A stretch of DNA of 64,000 nucleotides, taken from the NCBI GenBank assembly GCA_916610825.1, contig OU744449.1, positions 25,961,732 to 26,025,731 on the forward strand, given 5' to 3'. Both the position numbers and the translations under genes were made by a program. This stretch comes from Haliclystus octoradiatus (taxonomy: Eukaryota; Cnidaria; Staurozoa; Stauromedusae; Haliclystidae). The notes beneath the pieces are model-generated. The model worked only from the letters and a program-made list of their open reading frames with translations, made no database searches and was not told the origin of the DNA. Every line of letters begins with the position of its first letter. The stretch's first letter is position 1. Of the stretch, positions 27,181-36,100 are shown piece after piece.

Positions 27181-30100
27181 ATGGATTCACCTATTATTAC
27201 GCCACGCAAGATAAAGCTTGAACAGTTGAAAGCCGATTATGAATTATTTTTACAGACTTTTGAGAGTAAGTTTTTACAGCTTTTAAACTTGATCAAATTC
27301 GAAACTTTGGACTAACTGAAATTTATTATCCTAACTACGCTCTGGGATTACAGTTATATCGAATTTTCACAAGTTATGTGTGCTTGGTTGACTTATCCTG
27401 CTTATACATTTGCATTATTATTTTTCAGAACCAACATTAATTTACCGATACCTTCGTGTCAGACATACATTATCGGTAAGTTAGTTTAAATAGGCCAGCT
27501 ATATTAGTAGGCATATTCTTCTAATCGTAGATTAGACTACAGGATTTCAAATATGTCACATGCGGATTTTTGTTAAGCTGGAAGTATCATATTTTCTATT
27601 CTGTGGCTCAGTTTAGTTTAGGTTACATAAAAAACGTATAGAAACAAACTCTACAATCTATACTCTACAAAAATCATAAGATGTAGCACCATCCAAAATA
27701 CTCAAGTCATATAGAATAGAAGGGGGATATGTTACTGAGTCCCCACCACCGCAGGGGTACAGGGGTACAGGGAACATAGGAACTTGGCTATTTTTGCGAT
27801 ATATAGGAACACGGAAACATCTTGAACAGATTTGGGGGAGATAGGCTGCCAGACTGCAATATGTGCCGTGCGCGCCCAATATCTTGGGCGCGCACCAATT
27901 TTTCGTACTTTTTTCTTGAGCAAGTAGGACGCGCGTTCTATGTGGACGCGCAATTTCTGAGTTTTCAGTAAAGTTCGAGCTATACAAAGGTAAAGCCTTA
28001 GGTAATTTACTGTAGTTTTCATCAATTATCATAAACTGCTATTTTTAATGTTTTCGTAAGTGTATGTTGCACAAAAGGCATTTTTGAAGCTTTGAAAAAG
28101 AAAAATCAGCGAAAAAGTTAAATTTCAACCAGTACGAAGACTTGAACCCACGACCTTGTAGTCAGGACGCTGCCAGGCAGATTTTGCATGTCTCCTTACA
28201 AAACTTCCGGGACTTTTAAATTTATCGAATATAAGTAGTATTCATATCAATAAAGATATTTCAATGACTTGGACATCTCTAATTTTCTTGTGAATGTTGT
28301 AATTTCGTTGATTTTCGCTGTAATAAAATCCTTCCCAAAACTTTCGAAAACGCCATTATCATCGGAGGAAGCGATCTTGCAAACGAGGACGTGTTTTCAT
28401 GAGTTGTGTGGTCAGGGGGAGTAGTGGATAGCAAAAGTAACTTTGAAGTAACATTTTACCTCTCTAATCATACTTATTAAATTTAAAATACTCTAGAAAG
28501 ATATAGTGCAGACATCTAAAATACCTATGCATAACTTATAACTACATCCGAAAAAACATATTCGGTTTTACCCGCTTTATTGATCACTACACTCACACCC
28601 TGTAGTCACCATGGTTACGTTAGATACAATAAATAAAATGGCAGCTCATGTTTCGCAAGAAAGTTCTATTTTTGTATTGCAAACATATACTTACTGGTAT
28701 TTGATCAAGCCAAGTATGTTAACTTGAAAGAACGTCTTTTAGAAATGTAGAACATATTTCAAATATCTGAACAGATGTCTCATTTAAAGTTAACTTTGAC
28801 TCCAACGAAGAAGAAACGTAAGAAATCCGATGACCAAAAAGTATGTCTTATTCATTATGAACACTTTAAAGACAATTCAGGCATCAAGCCGTTTACTTTG
28901 ATTTCTTGGAACAAAGTTCATCAAGCAGGGTAGGTTAACTAACTATATCTATTGTCTATTGATCTGATGAGCAGTAGTAATCAACCACACAACACAATAA
29001 AAAACATCAAATATCATAACTTTTATTAAAATAAATACAAATTTTATGCATAGGAATGTAAGACACGATAACAGAGTTTTGGAACTTGCATTGACATTGG
29101 ATAATGGTTGTCTCCCAACTTCAGACATCGGGTTCCATACCAAGTGTTATTCAAATTATACGCATTCAAAATCTCTCGGTATCCTCCAGAAGAGGCAATC
29201 AGCAATTACTACTCCAATTGATGATAGTAAAGAAACTGATCTTAGAACTTCCTACAGGGATAAAAACAAAACGGGTAAGTTATATAATATTTCACAATTA
29301 TTCAGTAACGCAGGTATGCAAGAGCCTATAGGCATACCCGAACATATCACCAATATGACAGCTTAACTTTAATGACTTGACTATAATTTATCTTATTCAA
29401 CTTGACAGGTGAAATTCTTGCAGCTTATGAATGCTGTATTTGTCGAAGAAAAAAGACAAATGTTAGCGGTAGTGGGTATGAACCTCTCCAAAAGTGTGAG
29501 GTAAATCATGCTGCAGATACTTTAAAAGCTGCAGCGTTAAATAAAAATGACATTCCTCAACTGGTAGCTGATGTAATTCAAAGAGATACTGACGGAATTC
29601 TTGTTCATGAATTTTGGTACCATAAAACATGCCATCGCAATTACACGCGACAAGAAGTAAAGTTATGCACAGAAGAAACAACAATCCCGGCCTCCTTGGA
29701 TATTTCATCCCTTACAAATTATATTCAAGAACAAGTAATCAACCAGGGTAAAGTGATCAACATGACTGAAATCTATAAGTTGTATGAGCTAAGCATCCCT
29801 CCTGAGCGGATTAAGACGCAAGTAGATGTACGTACCCTGAAAAGTAAACTTGCGGAATTGTTCAAAGAAAAAATCGAATTTTGGTGCCCTAGGACAGGTA
29901 GCTGCTTTATTTTCAGTAAAGAGATTCCTACTGGCCAAGTGATAGAGGTTACCCTTAGAGCTGCAAAAAAGCACAACAGCCTATCAGAGGAGCCAAGCGA
30001 AACCATCCTCAAAAAGGCTGCATCTATCCTGAGGAGTGAGATAGATGACGCCGAACCTACCTACCCAGTGTGGCCACCTACAGAAGCTGAATTGGTTAAC

Positions 30101-33100: not shown

Positions 33101-36100
33101 AAGAAGCTGATACAAAGTTGTTCTTTTATTGCCAACATGCAATTGAACTAGGTTTTAAAACTGCATGCATCGTAACTGTTGACACAGACATTGTTATTAA
33201 TGCTTTGTACTACAAAAAACACCTCAACATTGAACTTTTTATTCAGATCAGTAATAAAACCCGGACAAGATTGGTAAACATAAACCGCATACAAAAAAAG
33301 CTAGGAGAAGCAGTATGTGAAGCCTTAGTGGGATTCCATTCCTTTACTGGGTGTGATTATACAAGTGCCTTTTTCCAAAGGGGAAAAATAAAGCCGTTCA
33401 AAATAATGATGGGAAATGAGGATCATCAGAAAACCTTTCAAAAAATGGGTAAAGAGTTCATATTTGACCAGACTGATCTACCCCAAATTGAGAAATTTCT
33501 GTGTGAGGTATATGGATTTAGTGATTTAGATAATATCAATGAAGCCAGGTACCAGAAATTTTGCCAAGCTAAAACCAAAATACCAGACCCTCAGCAATTA
33601 CCCCCCACACGTGATGAATTACTCCAACATTGCAAACGAGCAACATACGCTGCAGCTATCAGTAAACATGCTCTAGAAAGAAAGCCAGACATTCCTCAAC
33701 CAAATGGGCATGGATGGAGTTTAGATGAAAGTGATTGTCTGAAAATTCATTGGATGGATGCAAAGCCAGCTCCAGAGTCCCTCCTTGAGCTTGTTTATTG
33801 CTCGTGCACAAAAAGGGAATGTCAGACACATCACTGTCCTTGTTTTTCATATGGTTTGAAATGCACTGATTTGTGTCAATGTAAAAATTGTGGAAATGCC
33901 CCGCCAGAAGACTGTGGTGATCCTCTTGTTGATTCATCAGATGGATCAGATTCAGATGATGAAAGTGAATAAATCTACACATAAATAGCCTGATCTGATA
34001 TTCATTATACTTGAATAATAATCTAAGAACATGGTCATGGTAATTGGTATATTTCTTTCTGATCAGTTTAATAATGTTTGTTTTGTAGGTTACAAAGATA
34101 TTAGAAATTATTAATACTTGTATATATTTGAGAATAGGCATTAAATATTTTGACTCACCTTCAGTTCTGGCTTCTGACCTTTGTACTGACTTCATTCAAG
34201 ATCATCATCATCAAGATAAATTATCTCAGTAAATAACACAAAATATAGGTAATATTAAGCGATGTTTCCAAGCTAATTCTACTTCCAATTATTCTTTGTA
34301 CTGTTTTTATGCCATGTGATTATAATTCGCTGTATCCTTACCAACGGATTTCATCAAAAACTTTTACCAAAAGTTGGAGTTGTCAGATTGATATTGAAGT
34401 AAAAGATACAAAACAAGAGAATGCGTCTGTCCTGTTGCTTAAGCCTCGCTGTGGTGTGATCCTCCCCCAAAATTGATAAGAACAAGGAGCGCGCCGTGTT
34501 CGAAAATGGCTGAAAATCATGAAATTTTTGTGAAATATTTATTGACCCTACATCGGCTACAAGAAAAATTACGCTGTCCAAGTAGTCAAAAACGAATCTT
34601 AGTAAGTGCTTGAAGACTTGTATCAGTTTTAAATAACTCCCCTCGATTTTGTAAGCAGGATTCCTGGCAGCGTCCTGACTATTGATAAAACAGAAATTGA
34701 ACGCAATAACCACTCAGCCATCGCAGCGTTAAGCCGGTTTTCCACTGCACCAAACATCTTGTGCACAGAGACAATTGTTGCGCGAAGAATGTCGATCGAA
34801 AAATGTTAGTGATTTTTTCCATTCAATTTTTCTGTCGATGTACATAAGAATCAATCATTTCTTGATTTTTTTTTAGTAGCAACCCATAATTATTGGTGAA
34901 CCAAGTATTTCTATTATCCGTTATTACCATGGCAATCATGTCTTACTTTATTTCAGCCAATATTCTTACATCGGACACTCTCGTATCTAAAGAACAAAAC
35001 AATAGAAAGTACAAGTAATAATACCAAATCCAAACGTAGAAGGTAAACCTATCTGAATTACTATTCCAAACTTCGATGATATTTTGAAATTTCCGACAGT
35101 AAAACTGAGTGTAACCCACTGCAATTTAGATAATTGAAATTCTTACTTATCTGCAACCAGGCTTTGAAACCCCCTATCAACTGTTTTGCCAATTACACAC
35201 AAAGATACACAAGCAAGACATTCTTTCAAAGTACCTATACACAAATGTGATCTTAAGATCAGGGGGGGCATGTATGATTTAGTTATCGTCCACCTGGTCA
35301 CAGTTGTATCTTTGCGTGAAATGTGTTTAGGATGTGTCAAGTTTATAATGTCACGTTGCATACTTTGTATTGTGTTTGCTGTTCGCATGATTTTATTGTT
35401 CTATAATGCATGGTTTGTCATGTGCAAATTAATGATGTATTGTGATTGGTTAATTATGTCATTGTCTCAGCGGAATTGTGGTATTAGTTATTGCGTGTTG
35501 ATGTATCCACCCTCTTGCTTGTTGATCTCCGTTAAGAATACATTGTTTCATATCTGAAGCTACTTGCGTATCTTCTGTCTCCACCATGCCGACCATTATT
35601 AAGAATCTTACAGTTAAATTTAATAAAAAAACCTTTACAATTCAGACAACGATTGTCAAACTATTGTTGAACACCTGCAGAACAGAACAAGACAAAAATA
35701 AATGCAATGACATGTTATGTAATGATGATCAACACCATGACGGAAAACTGTCCATTTTAGTTTTAAGAAGACACATGGTAATGATGATATGTACATAATT
35801 AAGTATTCTATTACAGTCGAACTTGCTTAATATCCCCCCTCTGGTAGAGAAGAAAAGCGCGACATTAAGCAAGGTGGGATATTAAGCGATTCATGATTAT
35901 GAGAGTTTGTATGGAGAATGGAACATAGAAATCAGTTTTTTATGTGGGGATATTAAGCAAGGTGGAACATTAAAAAAGGGGATATTAACCGAGTTCGACT
36001 GTACATTGAATATTTTTCTAGGAGAGATATTAAATGTGAAGAATTCCTTTCTAAACGAGAGCAACAAGAAAAAAATCAATCGAGTAAAGAAAATGGAACT

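Follow-up and report, generated by a model that had tools for sequence, protein, structure and literature searches.

The transposons termed AcademX encode a nuclease of the XPG type. Academ is one of the superfamilies of Repbase, as given in PMC4455052, and appears in PMC9587614 among the superfamilies with a DDD/E transposase; the passage of PMC9587614 that names a C/DxxH motif for five superfamilies does not have Academ among them. As described in PMC10045372, the nuclease-encoding AcademX generates target duplications of 3 or 4 bp and AcademH, which encodes a helicase, duplications of 9 or 10 bp, and these lengths are related there to the encoded nuclease or helicase. Dada transposons insert into small RNA genes with 6-7-bp duplications, and their genes contain introns and code for zinc fingers and for a DDE transposase in which an H motif lies between the second D and the E (PMC3706591). 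Here we analyze an inverted-repeat element of the staurozoan Haliclystus octoradiatus that can be compared with these systems. The window, that is, the whole stretch of DNA analyzed, comprises 64,000 nt (GCA_916610825.1, contig OU744449.1, 25,961,732-26,025,731 of the forward strand), and the genome searched was that of the window (262 Mb, 33 contigs).

Results

Boundaries and insertion site of the element

The element and its insertion site comprise the following features, with the supporting evidence in brackets:

28159..34681, + strand: whole transposon, 6523 bp (four both-ended genomic copies, 99.2-99.9% identical)
28159..28177, + strand: left terminal inverted repeat, 19 bp, starting with TAG (inverted-repeat and genome search)
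34663..34681, - strand: right terminal inverted repeat, 19 bp, with CTA at its end on the + strand (inverted-repeat and genome search)
28267..28291, + strand: subterminal inverted similarity, left arm, 25 nt, 80% (inverted-repeat search)
34559..34583, - strand: subterminal inverted similarity, right arm, 25 nt, 80% (inverted-repeat search)
28156..28158, no strand: left target duplication copy, TTG, 3 bp (flank comparison; uninterrupted repeat copies)
34682..34684, no strand: right target duplication copy, TTG, 3 bp (flank comparison; uninterrupted repeat copies)
28100..28158, - strand: interrupted tRNA-like dispersed repeat (target), one half (rejoined-flank matches)
34682..34731, right limit approximate, - strand: the other half of this repeat (rejoined-flank matches)

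The original prediction had described exact 19-bp inverted termini with further inner similarity and TTG on both flanks, and all of these were recovered. The terminal arms (19 nt) are 100% complementary, and the 19-mer, allowing up to three mismatches, occurs twice in the window and never in 100 shuffles of it. The inner similarity between the ends (positions 20-150) scored 51, whereas 200 shuffles averaged 20.9 and did not exceed 38, and TTG is present at both 28156-28158 and 34682-34684. The predicted location inside SUZ12 was likewise borne out by Pfam matches to Zn_SUZ12 (E 1.9e-24) and VEFS-Box (E 3.6e-5, just above its cut-off) in frames downstream of the transposon, which identify the surrounding gene, as judged from these translated domains, as SUZ12. 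The putative placement in its intron 2 follows from a reading of the upstream exons only. The SUZ12 region also harbors a trinucleotide microsatellite (36678-37325) that exceeds 600 bp and is open in several frames.

The window copy is flanked by sequences that, judged by eye on the minus strand, resemble two halves of a tRNA-like sequence, and ARAGORN called no tRNA at these flanks. When rejoined with a single TTG, the flanks matched at least 31 places in the genome, consisting of both flanks themselves and at least 29 others. All 29 matches listed elsewhere span the junction, with 75-90% identity, providing the empty sites sought for this insertion. The five uninterrupted repeat copies inspected are gap-free at the junction, with TTG in four of them and TTA in the remaining one. 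Since the rejoined flanks match uninterrupted across the junction, the element must have inserted into a copy of this tRNA-like dispersed repeat, duplicating TTG. Elsewhere in the window, ARAGORN called a tRNA-Arg at 24014-24085, the intergenic or intronic position of which points to a tRNA-derived repeat and not to a gene.

Near-identical copies in the genome

The exact 19-mer end was found at 11 places in the 262-Mb genome, against none for a backward-read control, so other copies do share the ends seen in the window. Eight of these places form four both-ended copies and the other three are single ends (two on C1 and one on C6). Besides the window copy, both-ended copies lie at C10:6.12M, C5:23.53M and C10:16.07M, with BLAST identities to the window copy of 99.9%, 99.2% and 99.8%, respectively; the last value applies to the first 6333 bp only, the remaining 199 bp of this copy, which an insert of about 14.7 kb interrupts, being 100% identical. 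Each of the four copies presents its own 3-bp duplication (TTG in the window; GCG, ATT and GGT in the others). The shared ends, these individual duplications and the uninterrupted target repeats uphold the prediction of a DNA transposon with visible boundaries.

The original prediction had also read the intact frame as a sign of recent mobility or selection, and it is the first of these that the 99.2-99.9% identical copies support. The three other both-ended copies differ from the window copy by 9, 9 and 6 substitutions, and the coding substitutions among the near-identical copies comprise five silent and nine amino-acid-changing ones. The near-identical copies by themselves hence show no purifying selection, and this ratio indicates that they are of such recent origin, or under so little constraint, that it would not be visible. 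The copy at C5:23.53M has gaps within its coding part and a stop in the matched frame, and the one at C10:16.07M lacks six coding bases, revealing that whole-looking and broken copies coexist.

Several further arrangements were observed around copies and relics of the transposon. The insert splitting one copy at C10:16.07-16.09M (L021 from 6925, L022 to 7071), read on both sides of its middle 5.5 kb, is flanked by a duplication of 9 bp, CAAGGAGCG, has inverted ends that are near-identical, GG(T)ACTGCCTAAAAGGGTGACC, and contains a PHD-finger frame; the length of the duplication would fit several superfamilies, AcademH among them. At C2:38251800-38297300 (L024-L027), segments reaching about 10 kb in length recur, with 84-96% agreement where they match, and each bears a relic of the transposon's left end (76.8-78.3% over 1 kb). 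In the stretches fetched around these left-end relatives and around that at C11:16.69M, no right end was found. The relics at C11:16.69M (L023 at 589) and C1:39.96M (L028 at 1047) have a common flank and are each located some 20-25 kb away from the end of a contig, an arrangement resembling a subtelomeric duplication. Because the four C2 places are repeats of one segment and the C11 flank is common with the C1 place, the left-end relatives at C11:16.69M and the four C2 places were left out of the duplication counts. At C1:35.45M (L029 at 1858), the transposon is reduced to its first 28 bp, beyond which comes a run of TTTG; this stub may be a failed-repair remnant or a very short derivative.

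Gene structure and protein architecture

The gene and the domains of its product map to the following positions:

28775..28929, + strand: exon 1 (gene model)
29054..29274, + strand: exon 2 (gene model)
29409..31157, + strand: exon 3 (gene model)
31249..31771, + strand: exon 4 (gene model)
31902..33972, + strand: exon 5, through the stop codon (gene model)
30458..31971, + strand: DDE-like block, D476 to E906 (with D649 and H680), exons 3-5 (conserved in A1; putative catalysis)
32596..33714, + strand: FEN/XPG-like nuclease block, approximately aa 1115-1487 (profile alignment with FEN1/EXO1; motifs in A1)
33799..33882, + strand: CXC (Tesmin/TSO1-like) domain, approximately aa 1516-1543 (Pfam PF03638, 26.2 bits, cut-off 23.5)

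As predicted, the interior holds one intact gene, split into five exons with GT..AG borders that together give a frame of 1572 codons ending in a stop. Conservation was assessed in alignment A1, the nine rows of which represent five distinct lineages because groups A and B (described below) are included three times each. The CXC domain is C-terminal, closing the chain, and one of the nine rows reaches Pfam CXC. No XPG or transposase match was returned by Pfam for the window protein or the A1 rows, and DUF6589 matched three of the nine rows, falling below its cut-off in the row inspected. Single-sequence fold prediction yielded a mean pLDDT of 32.8, and the sole match in a profile search of solved structures was a chance one (E 0.85).

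Residues D476, D649, H680 and E906 (window numbering) are conserved in the A1 rows covering them, with D902 and E906 unchanged throughout all nine rows. RNase H-fold transposases have the same order, D..D..H..E, and the block can be described as DDE-like, with a putative catalytic role. The original prediction had envisaged a structure-specific nuclease in place of a plain DDE transposase. This contrast does not hold, since the conserved D..D..H..E block precedes the FEN-like block in the same chain, and the nuclease is thus an addition to the DDE-like block, not a substitute for it.

The nuclease block contains seven acidic positions in five blocks (D1141, D1181, E1284/D1286, D1310/D1312 and D1368), which we take to match residues of human FEN1. 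They are present in all eight A1 rows covering them, corresponding to four lineages. For comparison with cellular enzymes, a profile of the transposon proteins (11 candidates, 10 kept, L064 being too short; hhalign used seven) was aligned with a profile of four archaeal FEN1 sequences, human FEN1 and human EXO1. The alignment encompassed 233 columns in order with a score of 32.2, against a mean of 14.6 and a maximum of 21.9 for 150 column shuffles, 16.5 for the reversed profile and 15.2 for the DDE region; the probability assigned by hhalign itself to this match between two shallow profiles was 13.8%. The data point, with moderate strength, to a FEN/XPG-like nuclease at aa ~1115-1487. Like cellular FEN1 and EXO1, the transposon protein presents five acidic blocks in the same order and spacing, and it shares GCDY and EAD with human EXO1. 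It differs from the cellular enzymes in its low identity (~15%), in being embedded in a transposase chain and in its last block, which is GKGK- or RGK-like instead of the usual GIGxK.

Divergent relatives in the same genome

Searches with the exon-5 protein returned at least 87 matches in the genome and, among the matches listed, 13 belong to open frames no shorter than 1500 codons. The main alignments between copies compared within group A or within group B show at least 99.3% agreement, and group C right ends are 100% identical over 876 bp. In groups A and B the whole matched region lies in one long frame; the window lineage has introns. The group B protein is 24-28% identical to that of the window, and its elements have the same TAG..CTA termini as the window lineage. 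The right ends of groups A, C and D, with two copies compared in each, also appear to stop at CTA, the group A cut at ...GACTA being made by reading, as the BLAST match continued a few bases. Behind the group A gene (L038-L045 and L049, about 3570-4580) there is a tandem array of ~167-bp units, the number of which differs between copies.

The group B end, TAGTAGGGGAGCCAGGAGCA, was matched at 22 places (three for the backward control). Fourteen of these form seven pairs with the end on both sides, spanning 4.7-13.2 kb, and three good single ends and five matches with three mismatches were left out. Five of the seven pairs surround listed protein matches, and those at C8:6.91M and C5:16.97M coincide with none listed. 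All seven pairs are flanked by duplications (GTG, TTA, TTT, TGAT, TAT, AAT and CTA; six of 3 bp and one of 4 bp), whereas mismatched left and right group B flanks agreed over 3 bp in 0 of 42 combinations. Pooling both lineages, duplications were present in 11 out of 11 both-ended copies examined, ten of 3 bp and one of 4 bp. No relative of the exon-5 protein was detected in viral contigs, where a search with A1 matched its pattern in 23 stretches, none of which was confirmed.

Discussion

The combination of an encoded nuclease with ten 3-bp duplications and one of 4 bp fits AcademX as characterized in PMC10045372. The element is very probably a young, low-copy AcademX-type DNA transposon, apparently autonomous, with the name AcademX assigned by description and not through protein comparison. 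That same basis, together with the lack of a Pfam transposase match in the proteins searched and the occurrence of 3-bp duplications in other superfamilies, such as Zator (PMC10045372), leaves some room for an unlikely origin in another or unnamed superfamily that acquired a FEN-like nuclease independently of Academ. Set against this is the fact that a nuclease and duplications of 3 or 4 bp are jointly reported for AcademX (PMC10045372), and that both lengths occur here. A Dada identity was first suggested by the tRNA-like flanks of the window copy, since Dada inserts into small RNA genes, and the two have in common a multi-exon gene, zinc fingers and a DDE transposase, putative in the element, with H between the second D and the E (PMC3706591). 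Duplication length argues against it, with 3 bp in ten of 11 copies and 4 bp in one where Dada should yield 6-7 bp; in addition, the flanks of the other three both-ended copies are, by eye, not tRNA-like, making this identity highly improbable.

The intact 1572-codon frame within a SUZ12 intron might also be expected of a host gene lying by chance in an inverted repeat, or of a domesticated gene that selection has retained here. The near-identical copies at unrelated sites, with exactly the same ends and their own duplications, and the nature of the site, one interrupted copy of a dispersed repeat, refute either as the sole account and render it scarcely conceivable. The window copy may nonetheless serve the host in addition to being a transposon.

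For an AcademX-type transposon, the DDE-like part would bind the TAG...CTA ends, excise the element and join it to target strands 3 bp, or sometimes 4 bp, apart, with gap repair yielding the target duplication. The CXC domain and the N-terminal cysteine clusters could assist in DNA binding, and the FEN-like part would most likely remove 5' flaps or trim strand ends, either at the donor site or where the element is newly joined. A tentative extension, which we consider possible and rather less likely than its negation, is that the fused FEN-like domain acts within the transposition reaction itself, trimming joined strands or flaps, setting the 3-4-bp duplication and freeing the element from host flap repair, so that a single chain would cut, paste and finish.

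The genome of H. octoradiatus contains at least two divergent lineages in recent copies, with exact ends, duplications in pairs and many long open frames, and thus lends itself well to the question of why a transposon should carry a flap-type nuclease. The same applies to the question of whether the nuclease sets duplication length, given the contrast between AcademX (3-4 bp) and AcademH (9-10 bp) in PMC10045372. The original prediction had viewed a transposon of this type as unusual, and this must be revised, given that nuclease-encoding AcademX with 3-4-bp duplications is already described in PMC10045372. The Haliclystus unit is hence a fine new example and not a new kind. Its length of 6523 bp compares with a mean of 5565 bp for bivalve Academ, as given in PMC10294476. 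Unlike AcademH, it couples a nuclease with short duplications; like AcademX, it encodes a nuclease and belongs to a set of elements in which both duplication lengths, 3 and 4 bp, are seen. By description no difference from AcademX was found, and the CXC domain may or may not be usual there.
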